Shown piece after piece: positions 2,030-27,003 of a stretch of DNA of 42,131 bases; within the stretch, counting starts at the first letter, position 1; each line of letters starts with the position of its first letter. This DNA comes from Thermococcus sp. Lineage in GTDB: Archaea > Methanobacteriota_B > Thermococci > Thermococcales > Thermococcaceae. The stretch spans positions 1 to 42,131 of the forward strand of contig NZ_WANV01000022.1 of the NCBI RefSeq assembly GCF_015521605.1, written 5' to 3'. Both the position numbers and the translations under genes were made by a program. Below the pieces are notes generated by a model. The model was not told the DNA's origin. It saw only the letters and a list, made by a program, of their open reading frames with translations, and did no database searches.

Positions 2030-3739
2030 GTGCCGTTCGAAAGGGTTATTCCGTCCAAGGATGAACTGCGCGAAATGGTGCTCTCGTGGCAGATAAAGGA
2101 GGCCGTTAGGCTGGCCCTGGAGGACAGCGACGTTCTTCTAATGCTTCTGGATTTAGTTAGGGAAGACGATGTGAATACAAAGGTCCGAGCACTGCTTGCC
2201 CTCTACGAAGTTCTGAAGAAAGGAAACGAGGAGACGAGGCTTCTTGTGATAAACAACGGCTTTGATGCTGTGATCTCCTCACTAAAGTCAAAAGAGCCCC
2301 GCCTCGTAACGAAATCCCTGAAGGTTCTCTCTGCGCTGGCGGAGGGCTTTCCCCTGAGGAAGGAAGAGTTCCTGGAGCTTGTGGACATACTGGTTGAGCT
2401 GGTGAAAGACCCGGAGATGGAGTTTGCATCACTTGAGATGGCGGAACTGGTCACAAAACTCACAGTTGCTCATCCTTCCCCGGCGGTTCGTTCCAAGGTC
2501 ACTTGGCTGCTCTCCCAGGACAACCCTCGTCTCAGGGGTATGGGGCTGAGGCTTCTGCTCAACATCTTCGTGTTTACGGGAGACACCAAAAGCTTTGAAA
2601 CGCTCTTGGAGGAGGCATCGGAGCTCCTCTTGAGTGACGACGACATTCTGGTGGATTTCGTCCTTGACGTGCTCTCCGAGGCACTTCAGGGGGATGTCCC
2701 TGATGATGCGATCAAGGTGCTCCCCAGGGTTCTTTCGAGGGTTAAGAGGGTTGCCGCCCGGAGCGATGACTTCTTTATGAGGTCAAAGGCGAAAAAAGTA
2801 ACACGTAGAGTGGAGGAAGCGCTCTATAATTACTACCGCTCCAGACCAGATGAGGCTAAAAACGTCCTTCACAGGCTCGTGTTGAACGGGGAGTACGCCA
2901 TGGCAAGGGATCTGGCCATCTCAATCGGCGATGAGTTCCTCCTGAAATGGCTCTCAAAGACCCTGGAGAGGGAGGGGGTTGAGGATTTCACACCCAGGTT
3001 TCAGGTCGTTGGCGGTCCAAGCGGCGGCCCCGCGGGAGTCGTGGAGTTCTCGCCTCCGGCCCCACAGGGACGGCACGAAAAATCCGTGGAGGTCACTGTA
3101 AATGAGGTTTCCGACGGGGGTTCACTGCCGCCCCTTGAGAGGGTGCTGGAAGATGGGGACGCGGAGGGGCTGTTTAATATCCTCCGCTCACGGCCGGATT
3201 CCGTTCGGGAGATTGAGGACACCATTCGTTCTGGAGACCCCGGAAAGAGGTCGAACGCCATTTGGACACTCTCAAGGCTTGCTGGCAGGATGAACAACGG
3301 GGAGTTTGAACTGCTGTATCCCCTTATCCCCGCGCTCTTTGACGTCGTGAGTTCCGGAAACCCCTGGGAGAGAAACAAAGGGGCAAAAATCCTCGCTATC
3401 CTTGCTTCAAAAGGAGGCAGGAGGGACATCCTTGAGAGAATGCTCTCCCTGCTTGCGGAGAGCCCAGTCCCCGCGCTGGAGTTCTTCAGCTATTACTTCG
3501 TATACACCTGGGATGAGGACGCGGTGTCCAGGGTGCTGGAGTTCCTGAAGGGCGCCCTTTCAAACCCTGAGCTCAGGTTTTTTGCCCTCATGGTTCTCGA
3601 CGCGATAACAATGTGGGGAATACGCCCTGAAATAGACAGGGAAACCTTTCTGCCCATTCTTGAGAACCTTATTAACTCGGACGAGGATGAGATACGTAAG
3701 GTCACTGTCAGGATAATGGAAAGGTTCAAAACTGCGTGA
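2030..3739 (+). CDS. HEAT/ARM-like helical repeat protein, paralogue 2 (longer)
   Basis: About 569 residues. The first roughly 320 match the preceding gene, including DELREMVLSWQ near the start and YYRSRPDEA near residue 272. A low-complexity Gly/Pro linker (about 330-360) follows, then a second solenoid of about 200 residues with DPGKRSNAIWTLSRL and NPWERNKGAKILAIL helix pairs. The 3' part therefore looks like an added HEAT block. GTG 2030 is chosen because the promoter places transcription start there; an in-frame TTG at 2012 is less likely. No enzyme motif is seen. It probably arose by tandem duplication with its promoter. Confidence 0.7.
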   Translation: MPFERVIPSKDELREMVLSWQIKEAVRLALEDSDVLLMLLDLVREDDVNTKVRALLALYEVLKKGNEETRLLVINNGFDAVISSLKSKEPRLVTKSLKVLSALAEGFPLRKEEFLELVDILVELVKDPEMEFASLEMAELVTKLTVAHPSPAVRSKVTWLLSQDNPRLRGMGLRLLLNIFVFTGDTKSFETLLEEASELLLSDDDILVDFVLDVLSEALQGDVPDDAIKVLPRVLSRVKRVAARSDDFFMRSKAKKVTRRVEEALYNYYRSRPDEAKNVLHRLVLNGEYAMARDLAISIGDEFLLKWLSKTLEREGVEDFTPRFQVVGGPSGGPAGVVEFSPPAPQGRHEKSVEVTVNEVSDGGSLPPLERVLEDGDAEGLFNILRSRPDSVREIEDTIRSGDPGKRSNAIWTLSRLAGRMNNGEFELLYPLIPALFDVVSSGNPWERNKGAKILAILASKGGRRDILERMLSLLAESPVPALEFFSYYFVYTWDEDAVSRVLEFLKGALSNPELRFFALMVLDAITMWGIRPEIDRETFLPILENLINSDEDEIRKVTVRIMERFKTA

Positions 3740-14477: not shown

Positions 14478-15710
14478 TCACTCCCTTATGAAGCCGTAGC
14501 CAATGAGGCGCCACCTTGAGCCGACCTGCCTGCTGATGGCGACCCTGTCGCCGACTTCCGCACATATCGGTATCTGGAGCTTGAGCTCGACCTCGTCCTT
14601 TCCAAGCCCGGTGACGAGGCCCATCGTCCTGGCCGTCCCAACGTTGAGGAGGAGAACCTCGCGCCTCTTTATCGGCTCAACCTTAAGCTCCTCCTCGGTT
14701 CCGACGACCCTCTCAAGGAGGTGGACTTCGAGGGTTATGTCGTCCCAGACCGGTGGCAGCTGGCCGGGCTTTCCGACGACGTTTCCGGCCATAAGGTCGC
14801 CCTTGGTTAGGAACGGGTCGAGCTTGGTTCCCACTCCGACGAGTCCGCCGGGGTAAGCCTCATCGACGAACCTCCCGCCCGCCTGGAGGGAGACTATCTC
14901 GGTGGTTATCGGCTCGTACTTTATCCTTCCGTGGTCTTCGTAGGGAACGCCGGGCCTTATCTCTATCTCGTCGCCGACCTTGAGCTTGCCCTGGATTATC
15001 GAGCCACCTATAACACCGCCGACGAGCTTTTCCGGCTTTGTTCCCGGCTTGTTGACATCAAAGCTCCTCAGAACCAGCATCTTTGGAGGCTTGTTGAGGT
15101 CGTGTTCCGGCGTCGGTATAAACTCCTCTATGGCGTGGAGCAGGACGTCAACGTTGGCCCCGTGCAGGGCTGAAATCGGGATTATCGGGGCGTTCTCAGC
15201 TACCGTCCCCTTGACGAACTCCTTTATCTCGTGGTAGCGCTCGATGACCTTCTCCCTGTCGACGAGCTCGATCTTGTTAAGGGCTATGACGATGTTCCTG
15301 TTGCCGACTATCTGAAGGGCCATCAGGTGCTCCCTGGTCTGGGGCATGACTCCCTCGTTGGCCGCTATGACGAGGACGGCACCGTCCATGAGGGAAGCAC
15401 CGGCGAGCATGGTGGTCATTAGCGCCTCGTGGCCGGGGGCGTCAATGAAAGAAACGCGCCTCTCGAACTCGGTCTCCGCTCCACAGTACGGGCAGACCGG
15501 CGAGTTGGAGTACCTGCCGCAGCTCGGACACTTCCTTATCTCCGCATCGGCAAAGCCTATCTTGATTGTAATTCCCCTTCTCAGCTCCTCGCTGTGGGTG
15601 TCAGTCCAGATTCCGGTTAGAGCCTTTGTGAGGGTCGTTTTACCGTGATCAACGTGACCGACCATTCCGATGTTAACCTCGGCCTGCCTAAACTCCTTCT
15701 TCTTTGCCAT
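14478..15710 (-). CDS. eif2g: Translation initiation factor aIF2, gamma subunit
   Basis: A 410-residue GTPase of normal length for the family. The P-loop GHVDHGKT spans residues 18-25, a zinc knuckle has Cys61, Cys64, Cys73 and Cys76, switch II is DAPGHE at 90-95, and the guanine-specificity motif is NKIE. EF-Tu-like domains II and III follow. The gamma subunit binds initiator Met-tRNA and GTP and forms the aIF2 heterotrimer. GGGGTGAG precedes the ATG, with a TATA element at 15744-15753 and the palindrome CTAAATTTAG between TATA and predicted start. PIN, HD and DUF434 genes lie downstream. Confidence 0.96.
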
Positions 15711-25744: not shown

Positions 25745-25822
25745 GCCCGGGTGGTGTAGCCAGGCCCATCATACGGGACTGTCACTCCCGTGACTCGGGT
25801 TCAAATCCCGACCCGGGCGCCA
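25745..25822 (+). tRNA. tRNA-Asp (GTC)
   Basis: Acceptor stem GCCCGGG (25745-25751) pairs with CCCGGGC (25812-25818); the anticodon loop is CTGTCAC, giving anticodon GTC for Asp. The T-arm is CGGGTTCAAATCCCG, the discriminator base is G, and CCA is encoded. There is no intron. It is co-oriented with and closely behind 5S rRNA. Confidence 0.97.
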
Positions 25823-25895
25823 TTCTAACAACCCTTTGCTTCGCAAAGCGTTGACGGAAAGATCGTGTGCCTTTTGAAAAACTCAAATCCTCAGG

Positions 25896-26005
25896 GGGTT
25901 TACTCATTAACTGCCATTTCTCGAACGTTTGCCATCCTCAAGGCGCCCTTCGGGCGCCAGAATAAAACGCAAACCTGTTTGGGGGAGTCTTTTAGAAGTA
26001 AACCC
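25896..26005. repeat. Nested inverted repeats (three stems)
   Basis: GGGTTTACT (25896-25904) pairs with AGTAAACCC (25997-26005); inside it GTTTGC (25927-25932) pairs with GCAAAC (25969-25974); innermost GGCGCCC (25942-25948) pairs with GGGCGCC (25952-25958) around TTC. All pairs are perfect and properly nested. Confidence 0.6.
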
Positions 26006-26077
26006 ACACTTCAGTAGAGTTCTGAAACGTGCACACCAGTGCTATCCACTTATCTAAGAGAAAGAGATTCTTTTGGT

Positions 26078-26098
26078 CAAGCTTTTCCAAAAAGCTTG
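26078..26098. repeat. Hairpin repeat, copy 1
   Basis: CAAGCTTTT / AAAAGCTTG, a 9-bp stem with loop CCA, flanked by TTTTGGT and TT. It is related to the copy at 26362-26386. Confidence 0.6.
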
Positions 26099-26223
26099 TT
26101 AGCGAAGTTTGATCAAGTGGTTCTTTTTAGTGATACCAAAGTCCAAATGGATTCCTTTTTACAAGCTGTTTTGGATTTGAATTCCCCTCATTATTGCCCT
26201 CTCAAGGAGTTCCTCTCTTCCGT

Positions 26224-26240
26224 GACGCCCGAAGGGCGTC
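26224..26240. repeat. GACGCCC/GGGCGTC hairpin with GAA loop
   Basis: A 7-bp perfect stem; on the minus strand the loop is TTC, as in the hairpins at 25942-25958 and 25834-25848. Confidence 0.55.
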
Positions 26241-26361
26241 GATTTGACAGCAAACTCCCTACAAGAGAGGGTGTCTTAACGGATTCCAACACTCTGGAGG
26301 TTAAATTTCACAGAAATCCCACTTTAGAAGCGAGCTTTAAGAAGGAGCTACCAACTTTGGT

Positions 26362-26386
26362 CAAACTTTTACGGGGCAAAAGTTTG
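26362..26386. repeat. Hairpin repeat, copy 2
   Basis: CAAACTTTT / AAAAGTTTG, a 9-bp stem with loop ACGGGGC, flanked by TTTGGT and TT as in copy 1. The fourth base pair is A-T here and G-C in copy 1, a compensatory change. Confidence 0.6.
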
Positions 26387-26391
26387 TTTTC

Positions 26392-26469
26392 TGGCGGGCC
26401 GGACGGGATTCGAACCCGCGGCCACGGGGTTAAAAGCCCCGCGCTCTAACCAGGCTGAGCTACCGGCCC
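26392..26469 (-). tRNA. tRNA-Lys (TTT)
   Basis: Read on the minus strand: acceptor GGGCCGG pairs with CCGGCCC, the D-arm is AGCTCAGCCTGGTTAGAGC, the anticodon loop is CTTTTAA (anticodon TTT, Lys), the T-arm is GCGGGTTCGAATCCCGT, the discriminator is G and CCA is encoded. No intron. TATA element CTTATAAAAT at 26496-26505. Confidence 0.97.
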
Positions 26470-26535: not shown

Positions 26536-26565
26536 TTTTGGCCAACCTAACGGCAGGTGAGGGCG

Positions 26566-27003
26566 TTGGAGATAAGCAAGAGGGAAGAGGAATATCTTGA
26601 GACGATGTACATCCTCCACAAGAACAAGGGCGTGATAAGGGTCAAGGACATAGCCAAAATGATGAGGGTCAAGCCTCCAAGCGTTGTAGATGCACTCAAG
26701 AAGCTCAACGAAAAGGGGCTGGTTGAATACGAGAAGTACGACAGGATTCTGCTGACTTCGGAGGGCAGGAAGGTCGCCGAGAGGACCTACTCGAAGCACC
26801 TACTCCTCACGAAGTTCTTCATAGACATCCTCGGGATTCCCCCGGAGATAGCCGAGAGGGATGCCTGCCAGTTCGAGCACTACGTCAGTGAGATAACCGT
26901 GAAGCGGATACGGGAGTTTGCGCAGTTTATTCAGGATGAGTGCCCCTACGTGCTGAAGCAGTTCATCAAGGAGAAACTGGCCGAGAACGCGGAATCGGAG
27001 TGA
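26566..27003 (+). CDS. DtxR/MntR-family metal-dependent regulator
   Basis: About 145 residues. A winged helix (EEEYLETMYILHKNKGVIRV, then VKPPSVVDALKKLNEKGLVEY) is followed by the metal-binding dimerisation domain with conserved Cys, His and Glu residues (ERDACQFEHYVSE). There is no SH3-like third domain, so it is the short form. Likely role: an iron- or manganese-responsive repressor of metal uptake. TTG 26566 is chosen (AGGTGAG upstream and family N-terminus); GTG 26557 is an alternative, since the TATA box would place the transcript start there. A palindrome in its promoter suggests autoregulation. Confidence 0.85.
   Translation: MEISKREEEYLETMYILHKNKGVIRVKDIAKMMRVKPPSVVDALKKLNEKGLVEYEKYDRILLTSEGRKVAERTYSKHLLLTKFFIDILGIPPEIAERDACQFEHYVSEITVKRIREFAQFIQDECPYVLKQFIKEKLAENAESE

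Follow-up and report, generated by a model that had tools for sequence, protein, structure and literature searches.

The two hairpins in the gap between the tRNA-Asp and tRNA-Lys genes of this Thermococcus contig are end pieces of two members of a family of non-coding DNA modules anchored at the 3' ends of small stable RNA genes. The anatomy and the anchoring of the family can be regarded as secure. As to its nature, we see an about even chance that it represents a set of REPIN/MITE-like DNA cassettes, which would be exchanged by recombination and are held at the ends of small-RNA genes. Throughout, the window is the whole stretch of 42,131 nt that was analysed, and the genome from which it comes is called G000.

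The gap measures 569 nt from the end of tRNA-Asp, which is itself preceded by a 5S rRNA gene, to the 3' end of the oppositely oriented tRNA-Lys, and both hairpins lie inside it (Table 1). Each begins with the 5' tag TTTGGT, followed by CAAGCTTTT-CCA-AAAAGCTTG in the first and by CAAACTTTT-ACGGGGC-AAAAGTTTG in the second. Both stems are perfect over 9 bp, and they are unlike only at one stem pair, G-C in one and A-T in the other, and in the loop, exactly as the first-pass annotation had described them. That annotation had also taken them for two copies of one hairpin. The hairpin is indeed repeated, but the two are not copies of one unit in tandem: the first closes module 1 on the side away from its tRNA, the second closes module 2 on the side next to its tRNA.

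Table 1. Features of the module array between tRNA-Asp and tRNA-Lys in the window, and sites of a second repeat family elsewhere in G000. Fold z-scores are for single-stranded DNA.
Feature	Position	Strand	Evidence or remark
tRNA-Asp (GTC), anchor of module 1	25745..25822	+	ARAGORN, Rfam RF00005
Module 1, 270 bp, non-coding; type C end on the tRNA side, type A end distal	25829..26098	+	Partial paralogues behind other tRNAs
Module 1 tRNA-side terminal hairpin (type C), 6-nt spacer from tRNA 3' end	25829..25853	+	DNA fold, z -2.86
Module 1 central palindrome GGCGCCC-TTC-GGGCGCC	25942..25958	+	DNA fold, z -3.39
Module 1 distal terminal hairpin; tag 26072-26077, stem-loop 26078-26098	26072..26098	+	Sequence, genome-wide pattern, DNA fold (stem-loop z -3.28 against shuffles)
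Module 2, non-coding, anchor tRNA-Lys; half of tRNA-distal (left) hairpin missing	26102..26386	-	Sequence, partial paralogue
Module 2 left hairpin remnant (GCGAAGTTTGATCAAG), 3 nt from module 1 hairpin	26102..26117	-	Comparison with intact CAAACTTCG-type ends
Module 2 central palindrome GACGCCC-GAA-GGGCGTC	26224..26240	+	DNA fold, z -4.38
Module 2 tRNA-Lys-side terminal hairpin; tag 26356-26361, stem-loop 26362-26386	26356..26386	+	Sequence, genome-wide pattern, fold (stem-loop z -3.19 against shuffles)
tRNA-Lys (TTT), anchor of module 2; 5-nt spacer from 3' end to hairpin	26392..26469	-	ARAGORN, Rfam RF00005
Second-repeat sites behind tRNAs, G000	C41:78851, C2:33765, C36:73541, C2:48836		Last one diverged

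Module 1 matched DNA behind other tRNA genes with 72-83% identity over 179-271 nt (83% over 271 nt at locus L002, 72% at L003 and L004), and a partial paralogue of module 2 was found behind tRNA-Gln (L005, 72%). The junction within a terminal hairpin is not peculiar to the window, as modules are joined in this way at other loci too, for example at GCCCTT-CAAGCTTTT in genome G024. An open frame of 136 codons (26039-26449, plus strand) crosses module 2 and runs into the tRNA-Lys gene; it is probably spurious, and similar frames in the arrays of relatives may be annotated as genes.

From the loci fetched, 81 distinct modules were set off by their outward-facing end motifs, identical inner sequences from overlapping loci being merged. 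A module consists of two terminal hairpins with their tags outward, arms specific to the subfamily and, in most cases, a palindrome at the centre (such as CGCCC-TTC-GGGCG, detected in 62 of the 81), and it is non-coding. The set falls into six subfamilies (18, 13, 13, 9, 7 and 6 modules), besides which there are two pairs and 11 singletons, and none of the 81 was found in a second flank context. Modules chain into arrays, and the same terminal hairpins are common to different subfamilies. The 63 modules delimited at both ends, which served for the analysis of length and of target duplication, belong mainly to length classes of 236-242, 260-278 and 293-308 bp, with four outside them (231, 318, 320 and 332 bp). 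When the terminal hairpins were removed, the inner parts still folded with a median z of -3.0 against dinucleotide shuffles, and 63 of the 81 fell below -2. Complementarity of the subterminal arms was 6.41 within a module and 5.14 between subfamilies, several of which have unlike arms; because this excess is only slight, we do not claim compensation along the whole stem between subfamilies.

Could the pair simply be two chance hairpins in AT-rich DNA? At the level of the window the count by itself is weak, since TTTGGTCAAGCTTT with up to two mismatches was found twice against 0.24 expected and 2 of 100 shuffles reached the same count. A genome-wide search, which the first-pass annotation had proposed with special regard to tRNA genes, gave a different picture. 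The pattern TTTGRTSAARCTTN{0,24}AAGYTT had 18 matches in G000; they represent 17 hairpins, one match overlapping two others, while the reversed control pattern had none. The pattern was present in 74 of the 94 genomes of the family, and the highest count in a single genome, that of G024, was 66 matches with overlaps among them; the control gave one match overall. By genus, 58 of 61 genomes of the window's genus were positive, none of the nine of genus g3, 5 of 13 in g4 and 11 of 11 in three others; outside the family, the phylum contributed 21 further genomes, of which one had a single match. When named genomes were scanned with a common form of the hairpin, all 25 stretches found were Thermococcus, Thermococcaceae or Thermococci records, and the host is accordingly almost certain to be a Thermococcus. 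Two genomes, G035 and G072, both listed at 99% completeness, had no match to the hairpin pattern, and the window's array had none in the plasmid and phage collections. With these genome-wide counts and the homology of whole modules the chance reading is refuted, and its probability is practically nil. A lack of other copies, which the first-pass annotation had named as the refuting outcome, was not borne out.

The placement of the modules was examined behind every tRNA gene detected by the Rfam model in two genomes, 44 in G000 (one of them at a contig end) and 43 in G024. At 11 of the 44 genes and at 18 of the 43, a module end was seen by eye to follow the tRNA CCA at a distance of 2-6 nt; with a strict pattern the numbers were 9 and 16, and the same pattern was absent from the 75 nt preceding each of these genes. 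We also took the opposite approach and looked at 45 arrays from three genomes that had been chosen by hairpin and not by tRNA (all 19 clusters of G024, 13 of the 13 listed for G018 and 7 of the 11 for G013; one incomplete array of 46 was dropped). The nearest flanking tRNA ends were 36 three-prime ends, 24 of them abutting, and only 4 five-prime ends, all of them at a distance of 35-590 nt. Ends of protein genes, called crudely as open frames of 100 codons or more, showed no such bias (25 three-prime and 25 five-prime). Two further arrays (L117 and L143) touch long tRNAs that are probably intron-bearing.

The anchor need not be a tRNA. At locus L139 the array hairpin ends 4 nt from a gene for the C/D-box sRNA sR47 (2296-2353 of that locus, match above the cut-off), and at L004 and L007 the array ends touch sR47-like and sR44-like matches below the cut-off. 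All the anchors identified have in common that the array sits at the 3' end of a gene for a small stable RNA; some arrays have no anchor. Another sR47 gene was seen at L120 (1189-1247), just upstream of tRNA-Arg. Apart from the modules, we noticed a second repeat family, rich in GC (CAACGAAAGACAAGGGGGCTCCGCCCCC...CTGTACTCTCAAACCCC), which starts directly behind the tRNA CCA in L002, L004, L006 and L007 and is also found where sR36 ends in L007. The CTGTACTCTCAAACCCC segment of this family comes after certain module ends and was present in 9 of 21 genomes including G000, with no match for the control.

The base-pair change between the two window hairpins had been noted as compensatory, and this was confirmed on a sample of 251 hairpins with different 60-nt contexts, many of them related, which carried at most two mismatches in 8 bp; because of this threshold, unpaired hairpins are excluded from the counts. 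The pair in question, pair 4 of the stem, changes in step on both sides, being A-T in 136 and G-C in 91 hairpins. A search for further compensatory pairs, also suggested at the outset, yielded a second one at pair 1 (G-C in 149, C-G in 80). Stems were perfect in 195 of the 251, and among these all four combinations of the two pairs occurred (93, 41, 36 and 23, with 2 others). The mismatches were G.T in 16, A.C in 21 and others in 43 cases, so that no excess of wobble pairs was seen. Two stem pairs covarying without such an excess point to DNA rather than RNA. Paired change is strongly documented for the terminal hairpins and only weakly for the long stem, where RNAalifold on subfamily A1 gave 47 pairs, only 7 of them changed on both sides, with a covariation term of -0.73.

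Loops known in both orientations account for 136 of the 251 hairpins, although one orientation usually dominates (TCC 33, GGA 2). Correction of quasi-palindromes by template switching would produce changes on both sides of a pair, and inverted loops, in the absence of selection. As the loops occur both ways round, such correction, or the processing of cruciforms, could have matched the arms without any selection. Selection on a folded RNA, one of the two causes named in the first-pass annotation, is not supported, given the lack of wobble excess, the little covariation of the long stem and the absence of a matching Rfam family; the other, a protein-bound cruciform, may be the source of the kept stems. 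When the window's array was searched against Rfam at E up to 1, the sole match reaching into 25829-26386 was a sub-threshold YrlA (26354-26453; 24.4 of the 69 bits), which covers the end hairpin together with the greater part of tRNA-Lys. In searches with 20 and 39 further loci, some in both sets, at E up to 0.1, no module was matched. A known structured RNA of Rfam was therefore rejected.

Modules at a given site are not constant. The flanks formed by tRNA-Asp and tRNA-Lys hold different modules in G071, G037 and G014; in G058 the array next to tRNA-Lys has tRNA-Pro opposite it, not tRNA-Asp, and in G035 no module was seen at this site. Similarly, at the site between tRNA-Leu and a convergent protein gene the modules differ between G000 and G071, and sites in G070 were also covered by the comparison. 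Insertion itself was never observed, since no clean pair of an empty and a filled site was found. Two nearly identical pairs of modules at different loci of the same genome (97% in G024, 96% in G070) indicate that copying does happen, by transposition or gene conversion. More than 90% identity was reached by only three pairings among the 81 modules, one of them between two genomes, and judged by their sequences the copies appear to be mostly old.

No target-site duplication of 5 nt or more was found at the boundaries of the 63 delimited modules; the longest repeat was 4 nt, and the mean length was 0.81 nt compared with 1.16 nt when the flanks were permuted. A Y1 transposase (PF01797) had no match in G000 and none in 69 of the 94 family genomes. 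The remaining 25 genomes do have matches, but the enzyme is absent from rich carriers of the hairpin such as G014 (45 hairpin matches) and G022 (53), and a RAYT/Y1 transposase was rejected as the mobiliser.

We also compared gene order around the arrays. It was kept outward from the arrays in 47 and across them in 23 of 54 flank comparisons, which are not independent of each other. In a tRNA control between G000 and G024, both sides were kept in 2 of 15 tRNA pairs without arrays, in 1 of 5 where both genomes carry an array and in 1 of 12 mixed ones, 6 further pairs being too short. Since tRNA genes without arrays lose gene order as well, recombination by the modules is not separated from breakage linked to the tRNA genes. 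The control removed an effect that had looked strong initially, and arrays as the cause of synteny breaks were rejected; what we claim is only that tRNA genes are the site of arrays as well as of breakpoints. In the window, the tRNA-Lys gene and the frame at 26557-27003 have matches that lie apart or are reoriented in many of the 61 genomes of the genus, and this frequent separation suggests a breakpoint used repeatedly.

In the reading that we favour, that of exchanged DNA cassettes, the shared terminal hairpins would allow modules to be added, replaced and exchanged beside small-RNA genes, by recombination or strand switching. The arms would remain complementary through correction of the palindrome or through selection at the DNA level, and the enzyme that mobilised the modules initially may be extinct in most genomes. 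The placement 2-6 nt behind RNA 3' ends could alternatively reflect a role in RNA 3'-end formation: the hairpin behind CCA or box D would be transcribed and would terminate transcription or guide the 3' processing of the small RNA, the long palindrome being a by-product or a small RNA itself. The exactness of this position, its absence upstream of tRNA genes, the module ends at C/D sRNAs and the stems conserved through paired changes all fit such a boundary. However, G.T mismatches are not in excess over A.C, no Rfam family matches the modules, and the pattern is absent from the two nearly complete genomes mentioned above. Moreover, inspection by eye showed no hairpin behind 33 of the 44 tRNAs of G000, which include the one at the contig end and some that retain degenerate remnants, nor behind 25 of the 43 of G024, some of the tRNAs without it leading a tandem pair, and counts of T-runs near the arrays, made with T-rich terminators in mind, showed no clear difference. 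We consider a boundary acting at the RNA level rather unlikely. A classical MITE of a DDE transposon, or of a casposon-like integrase aiming at tRNA 3' ends, would explain the terminal inverted repeats, the dispersal and the tRNA 3' placement. It is made quite improbable by the boundary repeats, which are shorter than with permuted flanks and never reach 5 nt, by the lack of a plasmid or phage match for the window's array, and by the fact that no gene-bearing copy was noticed in passing.

Archaeal histone wrapping proceeds in 30-bp steps, and the length classes near 240, 270 and 300 bp might reflect such steps if the modules were curved chromatin elements that wrap histones and insulate highly transcribed small-RNA genes. 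Besides the length classes themselves, a periodicity of AA/TT/TA at 10.4 bp speaks for such an element: the power in the 10-11-bp band was 3.48 for the 81 modules compared with 1.52 for 829 GC-matched control windows, which are mostly coding DNA, and 53% of the modules lay above the 95th percentile of the control. The phase about the central palindrome agreed over 13 subfamilies with R 0.93 (62 of 81 modules), a value inflated because a palindrome allows only two phases and inner motifs are shared between subfamilies. The modules of the window itself reached moderate scores of 2.44 and 3.12, the peak of module 2 being at 11.9 bp and not at 10.4 bp, and stretches within the window's long open frames outscore them. 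Neither are indels compensated for length, with 5.25 observed against 5.37 expected in subfamily A1 and 2.11 against 2.63 in A2 (L068 was left out of this analysis; A2 was taken with 12 of its 13 members, L073 being omitted). We regard the phasing as only suggestive of a role in chromatin, and a chromatin element as unlikely. The strongest 10-11-bp A/T periodicity in the window was seen at 2721-3180 and 14861-15260, in DNA of 52-61% GC within long open frames and not in the modules, where the highest-scoring 240-nt windows start at 2721-2941 and 14861-15021. Eukaryotic tRNA genes act as chromatin boundaries, and a combined reading would have the phased modules found across the genus at small-RNA 3' ends serve both as chromatin boundaries and as the substrate of tRNA-linked inversions, the latter because all of them share terminal hairpins; this we find very doubtful.

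Families of palindromic repeats are known in bacteria; the tie to the 3' ends of archaeal tRNA and C/D sRNA genes, close to the nucleotide and across a genus, did not come up in the literature that we searched. The module family is undescribed in this literature, although subscription papers were mostly outside the search and an earlier description is possible; the portions available to us of PMC5495485, PMC2718504, PMC12306157, PMC3124441, PMC3733652, PMC4247193, PMC10969869, PMC3968343 and PMC3116915 contain no description of it. As the end stems stay paired while their sequences and loops change, RNA-level and DNA-level causes of covariation become separable here. REPIN and REP doublets, in the available part of PMC3116915, resemble the modules as extragenic, clustered pairs of inverted, tagged short hairpins with a spacer and a larger hairpin, and all 81 modules are inverted doublets of tagged short hairpins. 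They differ in the tag, which is TTTGRT in the modules and GTAG/CGTC in REPs (PMC3733652, seen in part), in their length of 230-330 bp, usual central palindrome and strong anchoring at tRNA 3' ends, and in the absence of a cognate RAYT/Y1 transposase from this genome and most of the family.

Casposon-derived MITEs insert at the tRNA 3' end and duplicate about 14 bp; the modules share the placement but not the duplication. Archaeal MITEs such as the SM elements of Sulfolobus, in the portion of the review PMC10969869 at hand, are short, non-coding, dispersed and bounded by terminal inverted repeats, all of which holds for the modules; in that review the word Thermococc- does not occur. The modules are unlike them in being mostly old and diverged, tRNA-anchored copies with neither a target duplication nor a parent transposon seen. 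By the tests made they fall outside both REP/REPIN and MITE, since no Y1 enzyme and no target duplication were found, though they resemble both. The sRk48 and sRk52 RNAs of Pyrococcus abyssi are transcripts of about 130 nt with a K-loop and have six similar sequences in that species, according to the accessible part of PMC3124441; by description they are, like the modules, repetitive, structured intergenic sequences of Thermococcales, whereas the hairpin pattern is missing from all nine genomes of g3, a genus that we guess to be Pyrococcus.

A likeness in placement exists to the tRNA-targeting integrases, which act at tRNA genes. The available part of PMC5495485 reports endpoints of inversions at tRNA genes in Thermococcales, where large inversions can end, and proposes an integrase; the cause of these frequent inversions is debated. 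According to the same part of that paper, a tRNA pair at an inversion border failed to recombine in vitro, which was blamed on too little similarity; no palindromic repeats are named there, and 'palindrom' and 'MITE' do not occur in it. That integrase acts on tRNA-gene sites, whereas the modules lie outside it, behind the CCA. The modules may contribute to the rearrangement of Thermococcus chromosomes at tRNA genes, a suspicion that is testable: dispersed and inverted behind these genes, they offer a concrete alternative substrate for inversion that can be deleted and tested.
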